46,090 bases of DNA from Nitrospirota bacterium (GTDB lineage Bacteria; Nitrospirota; Leptospirillia; Leptospirillales; Leptospirillaceae), in the NCBI GenBank assembly GCA_027415345.1, contig DAIBTC010000004.1, forward strand, positions 1 through 46,090, given 5' to 3'. Below the pieces are notes generated by a model. That model was not told the DNA's origin and did no database searches. It worked only from the letters and a program-made list of their open reading frames with translations. Positions 34,597 to 45,492 of the stretch are shown here, in pieces; within the stretch, counting starts at the first letter, position 1, and the number at the start of each line of letters is the position of its first letter. The translations under genes and the position numbers were made by a program.

Positions 34597-34943
34597 TACC
34601 CGGAGAGGCGCCAAGCCTTGGCCGTCCGTTGGCAAAGCCGGCGGGATCCGGTTTCCTCTTCCTTCCGGTTCTCTTGTTGATGCCCCCTTTTTGCCCCTTC
34701 TCCGGCTCACCCCAAGCGTTTTCGCACATATCGGGCCAGAGCGTGCGATTTCTCAGGTCCGATTCCGCACACACGGAGGGAGACTGCCTGGGAAGAGATT
34801 TAAATTCCTTTTTATATTGATGATTTATTTTATATTTAAATTTAGGCATCCCTTTTGCTTTGCTCCTCGGACGCCCTCCTTTCAATGAGGAAAGGCAGGG
34901 AACTCACGCGATCTTTATGAATGACGAATGGAGGTTTCAAACG

Positions 34944-35954
34944 ATGGGAAAACATGTCATCACGATGCTTCCCGGCGAGGGAACGGGGCCGGAAATCTGC
35001 GAGGCGGTCCGGAGAATCATCGACCACAGCGGCGTGGACATCACCTGGGAGTATGAGGACATCGGCCTCGACTGCCTCGACAAGTACGGAACGCTTCTCC
35101 CCGAAAAGACGATCAAGTCGATCGCGAAGAACAAGATCGCGATCAAGGGACCCACGACCACACCGATCGGCACGGGCCACAAGAGCGCCAACGTGACCCT
35201 CCGGAAGATGTTCGACCTGTATGCCAACGTCCGTCCGGCCAAGCTCATCCCCGTGCTCAAGCGCCCCTGGGACAAGATCGACATCCTCACCTTCCGGGAA
35301 AACACCGAGGACTCCTACGCGGCCATCGAGCACATGGTCTCCGACGAGGTGGCCCAATGCCTCAAGGTCATCACCTGGCCGGGATCGGTCCGTATCGCCG
35401 AGTTCGCCTTCAAGTGGGCCAAGGCCAACGGGCGCAAGAAGATCCAGTGCGTCCACAAGGCCAACATCATGAAGATGACCGACGGACTCTTCCTCGAGGC
35501 CTTCCGGGAAGTGGCCAAGAAGTATCCCGAGATCGAAGCCGGAGACATCATCGTGGACAACTGCTCCATGCAGCTCGTGAGAAATCCCGCACAGTTCGAC
35601 TGCCTTGTGCTGCCGAACCTTTACGGGGACATCCTCTCCGATCTCTGCGCCGGTCTCGTGGGAGGTCTGGGATTTGCGCCGGGTGCCAACATCGGCGACA
35701 ACTGCTCCATCTTCGAAGCCGTCCACGGGTCGGCCCCGAAGTATGCCGGCATGAAGAAGGTCAACCCGTCGGCCGTTCTCCTCTCGGGGGTGATGATGCT
35801 GCGCTGGATTGGCGAAGGGGCCGCTGCAGAAAAGATCGAAAAGGGCATGAACAAGGTCCTGGCCGAAGGCAAGACGCTCACATACGATGCCGGTGGGACC
35901 GCCTCGACCGACCAATACGCCGACGCCATCATCCGGGCCATGGACACTGTCTGA
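34944..35954 (+). CDS. icd: isocitrate dehydrogenase catalytic polypeptide (Thermus-type IDH core)
   Basis: ITMLPGEGTGPEICEAV, KSANVTLRKMFDLYANVRP, NTEDSYAAIEHM, HGSAPKYAG. Confidence 0.88.
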   Translation: MGKHVITMLPGEGTGPEICEAVRRIIDHSGVDITWEYEDIGLDCLDKYGTLLPEKTIKSIAKNKIAIKGPTTTPIGTGHKSANVTLRKMFDLYANVRPAKLIPVLKRPWDKIDILTFRENTEDSYAAIEHMVSDEVAQCLKVITWPGSVRIAEFAFKWAKANGRKKIQCVHKANIMKMTDGLFLEAFREVAKKYPEIEAGDIIVDNCSMQLVRNPAQFDCLVLPNLYGDILSDLCAGLVGGLGFAPGANIGDNCSIFEAVHGSAPKYAGMKKVNPSAVLLSGVMMLRWIGEGAAAEKIEKGMNKVLAEGKTLTYDAGGTASTDQYADAIIRAMDTV

Positions 35955-36469: not shown

Positions 36470-37951
36470 TCAGCTTTCGCCGGAGGCGTTCCTGCGGGAG
36501 GCGGGAGCCGAAGCCTTTGAGGAAGGGGGAGAATCCCCGGCAGGTGATTTCTCTTCCCTCTCCCTCTCCCCCTTGAGGCGGCGGTCGAGAGCCCAGCGGC
36601 TGATCCCCAGCGATTCGGCGGCCCGGCTCTTGTTGCCGCCCGATCGGGCGAGAACCTCCGAAATCAGACGCCGTTCGGTCCCCTCGAGGGTGTCCTCCCC
36701 CATCCGGAACGGGAGGGAGAGGAGACGGGGATCCTCGGGGGAGGGGGCGGTGGAGGGAAGGAGGAGGGGAGTGCCGCCGTTTCTTAGTTCGGGCGGAAAG
36801 TGGACGGCCTCGAGCTGGGTTCCTCCGCAGAAGAGGACCGCCCGCTCGATCAGGTTCGAAAGCTCGCGGATGTTTCCGGGATAGACATAATCCCGAAGAA
36901 GCCGCTGGGCGGAGGGGGAGATCCTGAGGACCTTTTTCCGCAAGGTCTGGGCCGACTGGTGGAGGAAGCGTTCGGCCAGGGGAACGATATCCTCCCGCCG
37001 GTCCCGCAAGGGGGGAATCGAGAGGGTCACGACATTGAGGCGATAAAAAAGGTCCTCCCGGAAGCGGCCCTCCCGGACCGCGATCCGCAGGTCCCGGTGC
37101 GTGGCTGCCATGAAGCGGACATCGACCGGGAAGGGGGCCCCGCCTCCGACCCGGCGGATCGTCCGCTCCTCGATCACCCGGAGGAGCTTGGCCTGGAGAG
37201 GCAGGGGGAGATCCCCGATCTCGTCTAAGAGGACCGTTCCCCCCTCGGCCAGCTCGACGAGCCCGATCCGGCGTCCGGCGGCCCCCGTGAAGGAGCCCTT
37301 CTCGTAGCCGAAAAGCTCGCTTTCGAAGAGCTCGGAGGGAATGGCCGGACAGTCCACCTCGATGAAGGGCCGGTCCCCCGAGGGCCCGTTGTAGTGCAGG
37401 ACCTTGGCCACATACTCCTTGCCGCTTCCGGTTTCCCCCTGCAGAAGGACCGTCACCCGGTCGTTGGGGGCCAGTCCCGCCACCTGGTCCCGGAGATCCG
37501 ATCCCGCCGGGCTTTCCGCCACCATCCGCTCGAGGGCGTACCGGCCCGACTCCCGGCCGGTCCAGTAGCGGGCCTCGCGGGAGAGGGAGAGGAATCGCGC
37601 GGCATTCGAAAGGGAGAGAAAGAGTTCGTCCATGTCGATGTTCTTGGTGACGAAGTCGAAGGCCCCCAGGCGCATCGCCTCGACCGCATCCTTCACGGTA
37701 CCCCGGGCGGTGAGGAGGATCACGGGGATCTCGAGGTCGGCCGCCCGGACCTCTCTCAAAAGGTCGAGGCCCGACAGCCCCGGCATGACCATGTCCAGCA
37801 CCAGGATGTCGGGAGGGGAGGTCCGGAGAAGGGCCAGCCCCTCCTCGCCGCTCCTGGCCGTCTGGACCACATACCCCCGCTCGGAGAGACGCAGGGCGAA
37901 GGCCTCCCGGATGAGCGGCTCGTCTTCCACCAAAAGAATCGTCGAAATCAT
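36470..37951 (-). CDS. NtrC-family sigma54-dependent response regulator
   Basis: Receiver VEDEPLIREAF...VLDMVMPG; GETGSGKE Walker A; GYEKGSFTGA (GAFTGA-type loop); C-terminal Fis-type HTH GGNKSRAAESLGISRWALDRRL. Confidence 0.95.
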   Translation of the reverse strand: MISTILLVEDEPLIREAFALRLSERGYVVQTARSGEEGLALLRTSPPDILVLDMVMPGLSGLDLLREVRAADLEIPVILLTARGTVKDAVEAMRLGAFDFVTKNIDMDELFLSLSNAARFLSLSREARYWTGRESGRYALERMVAESPAGSDLRDQVAGLAPNDRVTVLLQGETGSGKEYVAKVLHYNGPSGDRPFIEVDCPAIPSELFESELFGYEKGSFTGAAGRRIGLVELAEGGTVLLDEIGDLPLPLQAKLLRVIEERTIRRVGGGAPFPVDVRFMAATHRDLRIAVREGRFREDLFYRLNVVTLSIPPLRDRREDIVPLAERFLHQSAQTLRKKVLRISPSAQRLLRDYVYPGNIRELSNLIERAVLFCGGTQLEAVHFPPELRNGGTPLLLPSTAPSPEDPRLLSLPFRMGEDTLEGTERRLISEVLARSGGNKSRAAESLGISRWALDRRLKGEREREEKSPAGDSPPSSKASAPASRRNASGES

Positions 37952-39930
37952 GGTCCCTCCTGTCTTGACGGAATCCAGACCGTCGCCCGCACCCCGCCTC
38001 CTGCCGGACTTTCGATCAGAAGCGATCCCCGGTGGCGGTCCACGATGTCCCGGCAGATGGTGAGGCCCAGCCCCACTCCCTTGGCCTTGCCGTGAGTGAA
38101 GAAGGGCTCGTTCAGCCTTTTTAAAAGGGCCTCGGGGATCCCCGGGCCCGAATCAAGAAGGCGGACGCCCACCCCTTCCCGCCCGGACCGGTTCTCCCGG
38201 AAAAGGGTGACGGCAAGTCTTCCCCCTCCGGCGGACATGGCATCCAGGGCATTCATGGCCAGGTTCAGAAAGACCTGCTGGAGGGGCCCCCGGGCCCCCT
38301 CGACCGCCGGGATCCCTCCTTCCACCGAAAGGGTCACCTCGACCTGGTGCTTCCGGAAGGCCTCCGCCAGGAGGGACTGGGTATCCCGGACAAGCTCCTC
38401 GAGGACGATCGTCTGGAACTCGAAGCTCCGGGGCCTGAGCTGGGAGAGGTGGGACTCCAGAAGTTCGTCGATCCGCCGGGCCTCGCTTGCGATCAGGGAG
38501 GATTGGCGCCGGAGGGGTTCAGGAAGGTCCCGGGCCTTCGTCATGTGGTCGGCCAGGCTTCCGATGCCGATCAGGGGATTTCTGATTTCATGGAGAAGTC
38601 CTCCCGCCAGCTGCCCCACAAGACGGATCTGCTCCGTCTGCCTGAGCGCCTCGAGGAGGCGTTCCCGCTCGGAGAGATCGGTCAGGATCGCGAGGAAGTA
38701 GCGAATGGTGTTGTCGGGGTCCATCACGGGGCTGATGTTCTCCCAGACCAGAAACTCGCTTTTGTCCTTTCTGCGGTTGATGAAGCGGCCGGTGTAGGGC
38801 TTTCCCGAGAGCAGGGTCTGCCAGAGGAGGTCGTAGAACTCGGAGGGCTGGCGGCCCGAGGAGAGGATCCGGGGCGTGCGGCCGGTCGCCTCCTGGCGGC
38901 TCCAGCCGGACATGCGCTCCATCGCCGGATTCCATTCGAGGATTACCCCCCGGGTATCGGTCAGGATCACCCCGTCCTGGAGCTGGGCGAAGAGCCGCTT
39001 GTAGAGCGAGAGCTGAGTCTCCTCCCGTTTCCAGCGCTCGAGAAGAGTCGCGATGGTGTTGGCCACCGTCTCGAGAAAGCCGATCTCGCTTTGGTCGAAG
39101 CGCCGAACCGAGACAGTGTGGGCGCTCATGGCCCCCAGGACCTGGTCGTGGAACATCATCGGCACGCTCACTCCCGAGCGGACCTTGTGCTCGGAGAGAA
39201 GGACCGAGGGGGAGAACCGGGTCTCGGTCAGAAGATCCTCCACCACCACCGGCCGCTTCTGGCGGATCGCGAACCCCGCCTGGGAGTGGATTCCTCCCTC
39301 CTGGACATAGCTGCCCACCAGCCCCGGCCGCCACCCGACTCCCGCCAGAAGGTGCAGGAGCGGATCGGAATCCCCCGGGATCAGGATCTTGCAGAACTCC
39401 ACGTCCAGGGCCCGGGCCGTCTCCCGGGCGGCGACGGTGGCGATTTCGGAGAGACCGGCCCCCTTGACCGCCAGATGGGCGATCTTTCCCAGAACCTCCT
39501 GGTAGCGGCCGAAGGCCAGGGTCTCCCGGGCCAGGACCTCGAGATCGGTCATGTCCTGGACGTGCATGAGGACAAGGCCCTCCTCCCCGCCAGAGGGCGG
39601 AAGAAGGGTCGTCTGGCTGTCGACGATCCGGGCCTGCCCTTCCCGGGTGACGGCCGCAAGCTTTCTCCGGATCTCCGGACGGGCGGAGGTCGTCTCCCGG
39701 GCCTGGTCCAGAAGAAGTCCCTCGATGGGCCGGGGAACCCCCTCCGGGGAGACCACGGACAGATCCTTCCGGATTCGCTCGCAGGCAGGGGTGGCAAAAA
39801 GGATCCGGCCCAGGCGGTCGACCAGACAGAATCCTCCGGGACCGTCCTCTCCCGGATCCCGGGAGAGGATCCGCTCCAGCGGAATCGTAAAGGACAATGT
39901 TCCCGGAAAGCCCTGTCTGCCCTCACTCAC
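37948..39930 (-). CDS. soluble PAS-GAF-PAS sensor histidine kinase
   Basis: HxBox LAGGLLHEIRNPLIGIG, NALDAM N-box, LDSGPGIPE, GVGLGLTIC; GAF and PAS segments; GTG start 39930 overlaps the dabA stop. Confidence 0.92.
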   Translation of the reverse strand: MSEGRQGFPGTLSFTIPLERILSRDPGEDGPGGFCLVDRLGRILFATPACERIRKDLSVVSPEGVPRPIEGLLLDQARETTSARPEIRRKLAAVTREGQARIVDSQTTLLPPSGGEEGLVLMHVQDMTDLEVLARETLAFGRYQEVLGKIAHLAVKGAGLSEIATVAARETARALDVEFCKILIPGDSDPLLHLLAGVGWRPGLVGSYVQEGGIHSQAGFAIRQKRPVVVEDLLTETRFSPSVLLSEHKVRSGVSVPMMFHDQVLGAMSAHTVSVRRFDQSEIGFLETVANTIATLLERWKREETQLSLYKRLFAQLQDGVILTDTRGVILEWNPAMERMSGWSRQEATGRTPRILSSGRQPSEFYDLLWQTLLSGKPYTGRFINRRKDKSEFLVWENISPVMDPDNTIRYFLAILTDLSERERLLEALRQTEQIRLVGQLAGGLLHEIRNPLIGIGSLADHMTKARDLPEPLRRQSSLIASEARRIDELLESHLSQLRPRSFEFQTIVLEELVRDTQSLLAEAFRKHQVEVTLSVEGGIPAVEGARGPLQQVFLNLAMNALDAMSAGGGRLAVTLFRENRSGREGVGVRLLDSGPGIPEALLKRLNEPFFTHGKAKGVGLGLTICRDIVDRHRGSLLIESPAGGGVRATVWIPSRQEGP

Positions 39931-42445
39931 AAAAGACCTCTTTTCCCGAAGGGGATCGAAGCGGGGAGTCCTCCCCCTCGTCCCTGACCCACGTCCCTTG
40001 CCGGCTCCGGTGCTCCATCGGCTCGCCCGGGACCAGGCGGGAGAGGTGGATCCACCCGTTTTCGACCAGGTTCCGGACCAGGGCATGGCGCCCGATGATC
40101 CGCTCGATGGGAGCCCTTGGCGCCTCGACCAGAACGAGGAGCCGAAGCGGTTCATGGACGAAGCGGCGCCCGTCATGAAGGGACTGGAGGGCCAGGCCCG
40201 TCCGGAGATCCCCTCCGTTCCCCTCGAAGACCCCGATGGCTCCTCCCACCACATTGTGAAGGACCTTGTTGCCGCTTCCGAAACGCCGGTTGTCCACCAC
40301 AGACCCATAATACTGCATGTTGATCCAGTGTCCCACGATCATGGGGGCGGTCAGGATCAGCTCAAGGGTCGCAAATTCCGGATCCTTTTGCCAGTCATAG
40401 TCGTGAAGGAAGGCACGTCCGGAAAGATCCACCCCCGCCGTCCGGATCCGGGGGGCCACGATGAAGGCGGCATTGCCGGCGAGCCCCCATTCGGGCCGGA
40501 CCTCGGACCAGTCCCGCCCCCGGCGCCTGGCCTCTTTCAAAAGGATCTCCGGGGAGGGCTCAGGGCTTCCGAAGAGGGCGGCCCGTTCGGCGCAGGCCCG
40601 CTCCCCGGCCCGCTCAAGATCCCCCGAGAGACGATCGATCTCGTTTTTGCGTCCCCCGGCCCAGGCTCCCGGATCGAGGAGGGTGACCCGGTCGGTGGTG
40701 GTGTCATGAAGGGCCGCCACGAAGAGCGTCTCCCTTGGAATCCTGATCCCCGCGCTGGAAAGTCCCTGGCGTGTCGCCGGATCATTGAGGAGGGCGGCGG
40801 CAATATGGGCGCTGGCCTCCCCGCTCTGGCCGGCGCAGGCCCCGCAGTCGAGGGCGCTGGCCTGCGGGTTGTTGGTCGTGGACGATCCGTGTCCCACCAG
40901 AAGGACGATCCGGGGAAAGCCTTCCACAAGCCCCATGGCCCGAAGAACGGACGCGGCGACCCGGGGCCGTTCCGGGAGAGGGATTCCCGTCTCTCCCGGA
41001 ACGCCGTCGAGATCGAAGACCAGAGAGCGGCGTTCCTCCTCCCGAAGACCCCGGTGGCGGGGGGGAGAATCGCTTTCCCCCATTCCCAGCACCTTCATGA
41101 GGAGCTTTCCCGCCGTAAGAAGCCCTGCCGATTCCACGAAGGCAAAGGCGGAGGAGGCCGAGGTCTTGAAGATCTTCCAGGCATGATCGGTGCCGAGCCG
41201 GATCTCACGCCGGGATTTGAGGCGCGCATGCTCTCCTTCTGCTCCCCCCGCGGGCCTCTCCTCGATCTGGAAAGCGGGAGAGAAGAGGACCGGGAGATGG
41301 GAAAGCGCCCCCGACGTTCCGATGGAGCGGACCGCCGCCGGGATGCCGAAGAAGCCCGCAAAGCCTGCGGTCTTTATATCAGGCGCCACCTGCTCCAGGG
41401 CGCGGCGGAAGACTTCCGACCGAACATCGATGCAGAAGACCGCCAGGGCCCGGGGAGGCGCCTCCCTCGCCCCTTCGGGGGCCGGGGTCTCCTGTTTGCG
41501 AAGGAGGGCGGACAGAGAGCGACGGTAGCCGATCTCGAAGGCCCGGGCGAGAAGCATGTCGACCTCCCTCTCCCGCCGGTGGATCTCCGCGCCTGCCCGT
41601 TCCTCCTCTTTCCACTTTATGAGCCGGCTCTCCCAAAGGCGCAGGAGACTCTCCCGGCGTCCGGTCTCCAGAAGGATCCTCTCCCAGGCCAGCCGGATGG
41701 CCAGAAGATCCCGCATCGAATTCTCGGTCTCCCCCAAAAGCTCCACCTGCCAGAGGCGGTAGCGGGCCCAGGAGGCCCAGCCCCCCACGGAGAGAAGGGC
41801 CGCATGAAGGCGATCCTCCTCCATCTCCGAAGGGAGGGAGAGCTCCTCCACGACCCCGCGGATCGTCTCCTCCGGATCCTCCGGGAGAGCGGAGACGAGA
41901 CCCCGGACCCCCCGGAGACCGAAGAGGCGGGGAGACTTGTCGATCAGCGCCTGGGACCGCCAGGCCTCGTAGAGGGACCGGCTCTTCCAGGGGTTCTTCC
42001 AGAGGGCCTGGCCCATGTCGAACCAGGAGGCGCAGACCGGGCTGATGCGGTCCACCACGAAGCTCTCCCAGGATCGGCCGTCGACCTCCTCCCTGAGAGC
42101 GCCCATAAGAAGAGGCGCGGGAGAGGGTCCTTTCGCCTCCCGGTCGATTTCCCGAAGAAGAGTCGGAAGGTCGAGCGGGCTTCCGCATTCCCGGAGAGCC
42201 TCCGAGAGATCCCGGGACCGGATCCGCCCCGTGCGGATCTGCTCGCGGTAATAGGCCCTGTCCATCAGGAGTCCGGTTCCGGCCACCCGCCCCAGGGTCC
42301 GGTGGGCCTCCTCCCAGGGCCGGTCCACGAGCCCGAAGTAGGGGCTCACGGCCACAAAATGCTTGAGGGGCCAGAGGGGGGCGATCCTCCGGCAGGCCCG
42401 GTCGACGGAGGCAGAGAGGGAGAGAGGGATCGGAGGGGTTGTCAT
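39923..42445 (-). CDS. dabA: DabA-type inorganic carbon transporter subunit (DUF2309)
   Basis: 840 aa; beta-carbonic-anhydrase-like sites VFCIDVRSEVFRRALE and LLVGHGSSTTNNPQASALDCGACAGQSGEASA. Confidence 0.93.
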   Translation of the reverse strand: MTTPPIPLSLSASVDRACRRIAPLWPLKHFVAVSPYFGLVDRPWEEAHRTLGRVAGTGLLMDRAYYREQIRTGRIRSRDLSEALRECGSPLDLPTLLREIDREAKGPSPAPLLMGALREEVDGRSWESFVVDRISPVCASWFDMGQALWKNPWKSRSLYEAWRSQALIDKSPRLFGLRGVRGLVSALPEDPEETIRGVVEELSLPSEMEEDRLHAALLSVGGWASWARYRLWQVELLGETENSMRDLLAIRLAWERILLETGRRESLLRLWESRLIKWKEEERAGAEIHRREREVDMLLARAFEIGYRRSLSALLRKQETPAPEGAREAPPRALAVFCIDVRSEVFRRALEQVAPDIKTAGFAGFFGIPAAVRSIGTSGALSHLPVLFSPAFQIEERPAGGAEGEHARLKSRREIRLGTDHAWKIFKTSASSAFAFVESAGLLTAGKLLMKVLGMGESDSPPRHRGLREEERRSLVFDLDGVPGETGIPLPERPRVAASVLRAMGLVEGFPRIVLLVGHGSSTTNNPQASALDCGACAGQSGEASAHIAAALLNDPATRQGLSSAGIRIPRETLFVAALHDTTTDRVTLLDPGAWAGGRKNEIDRLSGDLERAGERACAERAALFGSPEPSPEILLKEARRRGRDWSEVRPEWGLAGNAAFIVAPRIRTAGVDLSGRAFLHDYDWQKDPEFATLELILTAPMIVGHWINMQYYGSVVDNRRFGSGNKVLHNVVGGAIGVFEGNGGDLRTGLALQSLHDGRRFVHEPLRLLVLVEAPRAPIERIIGRHALVRNLVENGWIHLSRLVPGEPMEHRSRQGTWVRDEGEDSPLRSPSGKEVFCE

Positions 42446-44127
42446 GGAAGGACCTCCCGGGAATGAGGATTGGGGGAATCGGCCAGACGGAGCCGCCCGG
42501 GAGAGCTATAGCCTCCCTTTCGCGGTCTCCGCGGGGTGAGCAGCCGGTCCAGCAGGGCATCGGTGTAAAGACCGGCCCCGAGATGGACGTAGAGTCTCCG
42601 GAGGATCGGCCGGTCTCCGGAGAGAGGAAGCGTCTCCTCGATCCAGAGAAGGCCCAGGAAGAGGGCGGCCACCAGCACAAGGATCGTCATCTGGAGGGGG
42701 GTTTGCGGAAGAGGGGCGGAGGGAAGAACGGGGCCAAGACCCAGCTCGAAGAGGCGGTGGAGGGCGAAGGTCGCGAGAGAGACGGCGGCGACCAGACCGG
42801 CCGTCGGAAGAAGCAGGGGGAATCCCGAGCGCCCCCGGGCCGAAAGCCCCGAGAGAAGGAGACGGGCCAGGGCGACGGAGAGGATCATCCCCAGAAGGAG
42901 GAGGGCGGGCTCACGCCCAAGGTCGAGGCCCATGAGGCCTCCGGAGAGAAGGGTCAGGAGAATGCCTGTGGCCAGCGCCAGGAACATCCGGCCCGGGGGC
43001 CCCCCCAATTTGGGAGCGATCGAGAGCTCCGGGCCGCGGAAGGGCTCGACCACGCTTCCCGACGAGAGAAAGGCGTGGGCTTTGTAAAGGGAATGGGCGA
43101 TGATGTGCATGACGGCCACGCTGTAGAGCCCTAAGGCACACTCCAGGAGCATGAACCCCATCTGGGCGCAGGTCGACCAGGCGAGGGCCCCCTTGATGTC
43201 GCTGGCAATCATCATGGCCAGGGCGGAGACGACAATGGTGGCCATGGCATTTGCGATGAGAAGGTCCCGAAACCCCGTCGGAAGGGAGACGAGAGGGGCC
43301 ATTCTGAGATAGAGAAAGGTTCCGGAGTAAATGAGCCCGGCGTGCATGAGGGCCGAGACCGGAGTCGGGGCCTCCATCACCTGGATGAGCCAGCCCTGGA
43401 GGGGAAACTGGGCGCTCTTTGCGACCACGGCCAGGAAGAGGAGGCCGGCGGCGAGCCACAGGGAGGGTGAGAGCTCCGTCCGGCCGGAGAGGGCGGCTGC
43501 CAGTCCGGAAAAACGGTCGGTCGACAGGGTCCGGGAGACCAGGACAAAGGCCCCCAGGAGGGCCAGGTCGGCCATTCTGTGGAGAAAGAACTTCTTCCGG
43601 GCGGCCAGGCGCGCCTTCGGCCGGTCGGGGTAGAAGACGAGCAGACGATGGAGGCAGAGACCCTTTGCGACCCAGGAGAGAAAGAAAGCCCAGATGTTGT
43701 CCACGACGACCATCGTGAAGAAGAATCCCAGCGTCAGGCTCATGAACTGCATGAAGCGTCCCGCGCCCGGCTCCCCGTCCAGGTAGCGCTCCGAAAACCG
43801 GACGACGGCCAGCCCCACGAAGGCCACGAGAAGCGACATCGCAAGGCTCAGGGGATTGACCCCCACCCGAATTTCGAAGGCCCCCAGACCTGCCGGAAGG
43901 GGCAGGGAGAGCCAGGTGATCGTGCGGGAGAACCCCAGGATATAGGTTGCCAGGGCCAAAAGGGCCGAAACCATGGCAAAGGCGGCCGAGGCCGTCGTGG
44001 CCGTTTTCATGAGACGGGGATGGCGGTCCGCGCCGCCTATGGCGGAGAGGATCCCCGTCGCCAACAGGGGCCAGGGAAGGATCAGAAGGAAGGCCGAGGC
44101 GGCCAACGCGGTCGGTGAAGAGATCAT
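42442..44127 (-). CDS. dabB: DabB-type proton-conducting membrane subunit (NuoL-like)
   Basis: NuoL/MrpA-type helices (FFLHRMADLALLGAFVL, FPLQGWLIQVMEAPTPVSALMHAGLIYSGTFLYLR); ATG 44127 with AAAGGAGA; the longer ORF start at 44220 overlaps the candidate promoter. Confidence 0.92.
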   Translation of the reverse strand: MISSPTALAASAFLLILPWPLLATGILSAIGGADRHPRLMKTATTASAAFAMVSALLALATYILGFSRTITWLSLPLPAGLGAFEIRVGVNPLSLAMSLLVAFVGLAVVRFSERYLDGEPGAGRFMQFMSLTLGFFFTMVVVDNIWAFFLSWVAKGLCLHRLLVFYPDRPKARLAARKKFFLHRMADLALLGAFVLVSRTLSTDRFSGLAAALSGRTELSPSLWLAAGLLFLAVVAKSAQFPLQGWLIQVMEAPTPVSALMHAGLIYSGTFLYLRMAPLVSLPTGFRDLLIANAMATIVVSALAMMIASDIKGALAWSTCAQMGFMLLECALGLYSVAVMHIIAHSLYKAHAFLSSGSVVEPFRGPELSIAPKLGGPPGRMFLALATGILLTLLSGGLMGLDLGREPALLLLGMILSVALARLLLSGLSARGRSGFPLLLPTAGLVAAVSLATFALHRLFELGLGPVLPSAPLPQTPLQMTILVLVAALFLGLLWIEETLPLSGDRPILRRLYVHLGAGLYTDALLDRLLTPRRPRKGGYSSPGRLRLADSPNPHSREVLP

Positions 44128-44203
44128 GTCGGTCTCCTTTGAATCAGGTGGCCCCCTTGCCGAAAGTCCGGAGAGACAATCCGAAGGAGGGTTCCCCCAA
44201 GGA

Positions 44204-44220
44204 AGCAATCGACATGCCAA
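44204..44220 (-). promoter_or_regulatory. candidate sigma54 (-24/-12) promoter for dabBA-HK-RR
   Basis: Minus strand TTGGCATGTCGATTGCT: TGGCAT-N5-TTGC with GG-N10-GC spacing; predicted start of transcription about 65 nt before dabB ATG. Confidence 0.75.
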
Positions 44221-44302
44221 TTAATAAAGATAAAATTCATGGTAATTTACGAAGACGTCGACCAGAAATGATCCTTGGGAGCCCCCATTCAGCCCTTCAG
44301 AA

Positions 44303-44320
44303 ATGTGCGCATCCGCACAT
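44303..44320. promoter_or_regulatory. candidate activator-binding inverted repeat (enhancer/UAS)
   Basis: ATGTGCG-CATC-CGCACAT, perfect 7-bp arms, about 84 bp upstream of the candidate -24 element. Confidence 0.6.
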
Positions 44321-44581
44321 CCCGGTCCAGGGGATCAAAAGGAAAAAATTCCGGGACAAGGGGAGGGCCGGCCTTCAAGAAGGCCGCTTTTGGACCCGGA
44401 ACCCTGGCTCCCCGAAAGGAGGGTCAAAGCCTCTCTCCCCGGACTGGACAGGGGGAACGGGGCGGGCAGGGGCTTCATGATGGGCAAGGTTCAGGGGCAG
44501 GGCGGGACCCACGGGAGGGGATGTCATCAACAGTTCGGGAAAACGGAGGCCGACACCGCCCTCTTGCCGGACTCTTCCCCG

Positions 44582-44818
44582 TCAAAGGGCCACCAGGCAG
44601 CGCACCAGCCCGGCATAGTAGCAGCAGCGGTCGTCGTTTAGATCATTGAAGAAGAGTCTCTCCTGGCCGTCTTCGAAGAGGATCAGGACGAAGCAGGCGC
44701 CTCCGGCCACGGTGGACTCCCGGGTCTCGACGACCCGACCCGTTCCCCACTCCGGATAGTCCCGGTGACGGACCCTCTCATCGCGCCGGAGATATCGGCG
44801 CACGCCGTGTTCGATCAT
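44582..44818 (-). CDS. DUF3553-like small protein
   Basis: RVRHRDYPEWGTGRVVETRE...FEDGQERLFF. Confidence 0.65.
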   Translation of the reverse strand: MIEHGVRRYLRRDERVRHRDYPEWGTGRVVETRESTVAGGACFVLILFEDGQERLFFNDLNDDRCCYYAGLVRCLVAL

Positions 44819-45492
44819 GGATGGACCGCCCTGGGATTCATGGTTTGGGCCCGGGCCCGGTAGAAGGAGCTTTCGGGGCAGAGATCGAGCGCCGCCGAAA
44901 GGAAGCGCCGGGCGCCGGGACGGCCGAGGCGGTGGCGGGCGATGCCGATCCAGGAGAGGACCCGGGGATCCCCCGGACGAAGGGCGTTGGCCTGCTCGAA
45001 TTCCCCGAGGGCCCGGGCGACGGATCCCCCGACGAACCAGGGCTTGAAATAGAGCTCAAGGCCCTTCGACAGGTGGGCCTCGGGATTTTTGGGGTCGAGA
45101 GAAAGGGCCCGGGCGTTTTCGGTCTGGGCCTTTGTGCCGTAGGACATGCCGGCCGGGAATCCCCTGTACTGGACCATCAGGAGGTCCCGTTCCCCGGCCA
45201 GGGCGTGGAGGGTCGAATCCCCCGGATGCTCCGACAGGAGACTCCCCGCCTCCCGCCCGGCCAGGGCCAGGGCCTTCTCCCCGACACTTCGCTGGCCCGG
45301 GATGTCCCTCACCGTCCGGGCCACCAGAAGAAGGGCCCGGAGATCCGCTTCCGACGGGTTTGCCCCCAGGACCGGCAGGAGACGGGTTGTGGAAGGGCCG
45401 GGACAGGCGGGGAGGGTCTTGGGAAGGGCGTAGGCCGGAGAGAGACCGGCGGAGGCGAGGAGGAGAACGGCCAGGAGAACTCGGGACATCAC
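44815..45492 (-). CDS. exported TPR-containing hypothetical protein
   Basis: Signal peptide VLLAVLLLASAGLSPAYA; TPR-like AHLSKGLELYFKPW...ALGEFEQANALRPGDPRVLSWIGIARHRLG; ATGA-type overlap with the DUF3553-like gene. Confidence 0.65.
   Translation of the reverse strand: MMSRVLLAVLLLASAGLSPAYALPKTLPACPGPSTTRLLPVLGANPSEADLRALLLVARTVRDIPGQRSVGEKALALAGREAGSLLSEHPGDSTLHALAGERDLLMVQYRGFPAGMSYGTKAQTENARALSLDPKNPEAHLSKGLELYFKPWFVGGSVARALGEFEQANALRPGDPRVLSWIGIARHRLGRPGARRFLSAALDLCPESSFYRARAQTMNPRAVHP

Follow-up and report, generated by a model that had tools for sequence, protein, structure and literature searches.

A conserved sigma54-type promoter and upstream palindrome at the DAB carbon pump operon of the Leptospirillum family, probably switched by linked sensor and activator genes

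Gene content of the dab locus

The window (the whole 46,090-nt stretch of DNA analysed here, with a G+C content of 62% and belonging to a 2.0-Mb draft genome, G000) carries on its minus strand the genes of a DAB inorganic carbon pump, followed by those of a histidine kinase and a response regulator (Table 1). The order is dabB-dabA-kinase-activator, and neighbouring genes overlap by 4 to 8 nt throughout, which makes cotranscription of all four almost certain. DabA, which adjoins the NuoL-like DabB, contains CIDVRSE, VGHGS and LDCGACAGQ, which we take to be its zinc-site motifs; the DabA domain formerly went by the name DUF2309. For dabB, the open reading frame list gives a TTG start at 44220, overlapping the promoter described below, and the likely start is the ATG at 44127, behind AAAGGAG. 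Hydropathy revealed no membrane-spanning segment in the kinase, which therefore probably reads a cytoplasmic signal. An earlier note on this DNA had held that the operon itself encodes an activator with a GSFTGA loop, and the Pfam domains and loop of the fourth gene product bear this out: a receiver with its Asp, an AAA+ domain with Walker motifs, GSFTGA as the GAFTGA-type loop, and a Fis-type helix-turn-helix (HTH). Its closest solved relatives are NtrC1-type proteins (NtrC1, ZraR and LuxO). An isocitrate dehydrogenase-like gene on the plus strand (34860-35954) is convergent with the operon end, and homologues of it also lie near the activator gene at two other loci (L150 and L151).

Table 1 Features of the dab operon and its upstream region (window coordinates)
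Feature	Position	Strand	Details
Perfect palindrome TGTGCG-N4-CGCACA, candidate upstream activator site (enhancer)	44304..44319		Conserved in the family
AT-rich stretch directly upstream of -24	44221..44260	-	72% A+T in a window of 62% G+C
Sigma54 -24/-12 promoter element	44204..44220	-	TTGGCATGTCGATTGCT, 12/13 to consensus
Predicted transcription start (A)	44193	-	12 nt past the -12 C; inferred from spacing
dabB, NuoL/Mrp-like membrane subunit of the DAB inorganic carbon pump	42442..44127	-	PF00361, PF00662
dabA, DAB catalytic subunit	39923..42445	-	PF10070, E 8e-261; 4-nt overlap with dabB
Soluble histidine kinase, GAF-PAS-HisKA-HATPase, 660 aa	37948..39930	-	Pfam; GTG start overlaps dabA end
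NtrC-type response regulator/sigma54 activator: receiver, AAA+ with GSFTGA, Fis-type HTH	36470..37951	-	4-nt overlap with kinase gene

Read on the minus strand from 44220 to 44204, TTGGCATGTCGATTGCT departs from the sigma54 motif YTGGCACGNNNNTTGCW, which was scored over its 13 specified positions, by a single mismatch (C to T in TGGCAYG), with its GG (44218-44217) and GC (44206-44205) exactly ten bases apart inside the -24/-12 consensus (GG-N10-GC). The earlier note had described such a one-base departure in the -24 box, and its sequence, strand and coordinates proved correct throughout. It placed the element some 65-90 nt before the dabB ATG, and the 3' end of the site lies 76 nt ahead of that codon. 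Transcription beginning at the predicted A would give a leader of 66 nt. The AT-rich stretch ahead of the -24 box is a possible bend region, a function suggested by its composition and position. A sigma70-like TCGACA-N16-TAAAAT (44209-44236) overlaps the sigma54 site on the plus strand, opposite to the operon.

Conservation of the promoter element and an upstream palindrome

Bare matches to the sigma54 motif were no rarer than chance, both in the window (2 matches with up to two mismatches, against 1.46 expected) and in the whole draft genome (6 matches with at most one mismatch, against 8 for a reversed control). Genome-wide, a match alone thus proves nothing, and the motif score by itself was dropped as a criterion. 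Inside a 400-nt upstream region, a 12/13 match is rare, occurring at a frequency of about 3e-4 in Markov-shuffled sequence. We accept the promoter as genuine because conservation among relatives, rather than motif score, decides the matter.

For this comparison, the regions upstream of 14 main-lineage dabB genes were assembled: that of the window, ten more from the genus, and one each from G025 (a complete relative genome of 2,559,538 bp), G026 and G028. Every one of the 14 has a GG-N10-GC site at the corresponding place, scoring 10-13 of 13 and ending 66-118 nt ahead of the start codon, and in every one the region before the -24 box is 60-90% A+T. The flanks around these sites diverge, and the sites themselves vary at the first consensus position, which is A in place of Y in G008 and G002. 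When the six closest regions were aligned (pairwise identity 39-69%), the only invariant runs of at least 4 nt were GTGCG, TGGCA, TTGC and AAGGAG. Of these, TGGCA belongs to the -24 box, TTGC to the -12 box, AAGGAG to the Shine-Dalgarno sequence and GTGCG to an element further upstream.

The invariant GTGCG is the left half of the palindrome TGTGCG-N4-CGCACA, which is absent from the earlier reading of the locus and was found here upstream of the sigma54 site, its centre 93 bp upstream of the -24 GG. Palindromes retaining at least 9 of the 12 letters occur 70-104 bp before the -24 box in 12 of the 14 regions; that of G001 is weak (8/12). To judge from its sequence and position, the palindrome is probably an enhancer, and together with the -24/-12 element and the AT-rich spacer it would make up the full set of elements usual for a sigma54 promoter that depends on an activator. 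Across 13 regions, the spacings (70-74, 91-95 and 104 bp) cluster near whole helical turns (helical-phase resultant 0.71), a pattern that is suggestive only, since the genomes are related and the 91-95 bp class dominates.

RpoN, the linked activator and alternative readings

Absence of rpoN from the genome had been set beforehand as the observation that should count against a sigma54 promoter; the search was made, and the window's own draft genome encodes a full-length RpoN of 497 aa. With rpoN present and the site kept in all main-lineage upstream regions, the sigma54 reading of the earlier note is supported. Ten further genomes of the genus also have the gene (11 of 14 in total). In three drafts that carry the promoter (G002, G008 and G009), rpoN was not detected, and hpf, its neighbour in G000, is likewise missing from them, which weakens any use of these three genomes as a refutation; the likelier cause is a gap in the assemblies rather than true loss of the gene.

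Genes for the kinase and activator adjoin dabA, or lie a few kilobases past it, at 11 loci (G000, G001, G002, G007, G008, G011, G021, G025, G026, G027 and G028), and one contig of G006 has them after a fragment of dabA. In G003 and G012, the contigs with the activator gene show no dab genes, but their sequence starts inside ilvD or the kinase gene, and they are therefore uninformative on loss of linkage. Outside the class, no DAB locus that was recovered has the kinase and activator arranged in this way, and no site combining GG-GC with a score of 10 or more of 13 was found at those with upstream sequence. The pairing of motif and activator is otherwise tidy, with one exception: a second main-lineage dab operon in G002 (locus L156, contig G002:C11) has a 12/13 sigma54 site and half-palindromes only, and its 9.3-kb contig lacks the kinase and activator. 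Taken together, these observations make it very probable that 44204-44220 is a genuine sigma54 promoter of the dabB-dabA-kinase-activator operon, switched through the palindrome by the operon's own kinase and activator.

An alternative that retains the sigma54 promoter is that the palindrome is bound by another protein, either of the Crp/Fnr type or a different NtrC-type activator. Many other activators are available in the genome (18 matches in G000), and the palindrome, which can also be written TGTGC-N6-GCACA, bears a loose resemblance to Crp-type sites. Against another binder, the perfect palindrome is present in a single copy in both G000 and the complete genome of G025, at dab both times, as would be expected if the regulator served this locus alone rather than the genome at large. 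Furthermore, the HTH of the linked activator is preserved together with the palindrome (all orthologues examined retain the HTH stretch GISRWAL, as well as GSFTGA), whereas the palindrome is missing at second dab operons that have no linked activator; the second, more distant dabBA operons of G025 and G026 (L190 and L192) have neither promoter nor palindrome and no nearby kinase or activator. We therefore consider a different binder unlikely.

That the operon is instead driven by a sigma70-type promoter, with the -24/-12 match a relic or a coincidence, would agree with the chance frequency of the motif alone genome-wide, and little is known of promoters in these acidophiles. Two separate invariant boxes persist across the family in otherwise diverged DNA, however, and 44100-44830 has no sigma70-like site on the operon strand, the one found there being on the opposite strand, so we regard this reading as very improbable. 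Least credible of all is a different role for the conserved boxes, for instance as the operator of a repressor or as part of the leader: palindromes can serve as operators, but the letters of these boxes and the 10 nt between them are those of sigma54 promoters, their place is ahead of the predicted start, and a sigma54 activator accompanies them.

A proposed carbon-uptake switch and its relation to known systems

For the preferred reading, in which the linked sensor and activator genes probably throw a sigma54 switch of the CO2 pump, the parts suggest the following sequence of events. RpoN holoenzyme would rest in a closed state on the -24/-12 element until the cytoplasmic GAF-PAS kinase, on receiving its signal, phosphorylates the NtrC-type activator. 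The phosphorylated protein would then occupy the palindrome and loop across the AT-rich spacer, where its GSFTGA loop and ATP hydrolysis would open the promoter, with transcription starting at about 44193. The resulting DabB and DabA would hydrate CO2 to bicarbonate by means of the membrane potential, which could trap carbon under acid conditions, in which CO2 is the form that inorganic carbon takes. With the kinase and activator encoded inside their own target operon, activation should reinforce itself; by the same token, if a promoter dependent on sigma54 alone drives its own activator, some other basal supply of that activator must exist. The candidate signals for the kinase are carbon shortage and redox or energy stress, and, as DAB couples CO2 hydration to membrane potential (PMC13144422), low carbon is a natural guess.

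Little has been written on how the transcription of DAB pumps is controlled, and searches of open-access papers gave no report linking DAB to sigma54 or RpoN; the parts are of known kinds, and it is their wiring, from a DAB pump to sigma54, that appears to be undescribed. The operon supplies a testable promoter, a candidate enhancer, a sensor and an activator at a single locus, in hosts that matter in acid mine drainage and bioleaching.

In its design, the system resembles NtrB/NtrC-type sigma54 control, with a receiver-AAA+-Fis HTH activator, a HEIRNP-type kinase, an upstream palindrome and a -24/-12 promoter. It differs from NtrB/NtrC in that its target is an inorganic carbon pump, its activator has GSFTGA for GAFTGA, and its kinase takes input through GAF and PAS domains and lacks a membrane segment. 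GSFTGA is listed among the activator-loop substitutions that retain activity, and two response regulators of Desulfovibrio vulgaris with this loop, DVU2394 and DVU3220, have assigned sigma54-dependent targets (PMC4641369); they share the loop with the activator described here, and their target operons are different. The pump itself resembles the described DAB complex (DabA/DabB, DAB2; PMC13144422) in that its DabA carries the CxD, H and C motifs and its DabB is NuoL-like. It departs from that complex in the sensor and sigma54 activator of the operon, which were not seen at the DAB loci recovered from outside the class.

A published counterpart of the operon appears to be the 'och operon' of Leptospirillum sp. 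CF-1, which comprises genes for a NuoL-like protein, a DUF2309 protein, a hypothetical protein and ilvD, followed by sua5, and which is cotranscribed, induced 2.8-23.5 fold by chromate and interpreted as an oxidative stress operon (PMC9080137). When the text of that paper was searched, no promoter, sigma factor or response regulator came up (PMC9080137). The dab locus of G001 (L149:2634-14017) has, in one direction, dabB, dabA, DUF6671, ilvD, sua5, kinase and activator, which is the published och gene order together with its probable regulators; the operon in the window, with the kinase and activator directly after dabA, would be a related variant. We predict a palindrome and a -24/-12 site of the kind described here upstream of the CF-1 NuoL-like gene. 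A broader proposal, in which we place even confidence, is that DAB CO2 uptake throughout the Leptospirillum family is governed by a dedicated sigma54 two-component switch that reinforces itself, has a single perfect enhancer in at least two genomes and is driven by a cytoplasmic GAF-PAS protein sensing the carbon or redox state of the cell interior, and that the chromate response of och is a response of this switch rather than of a specific detoxification system. The comparison suggests that the och oxidative-stress operon be read anew as a CO2-uptake operon.
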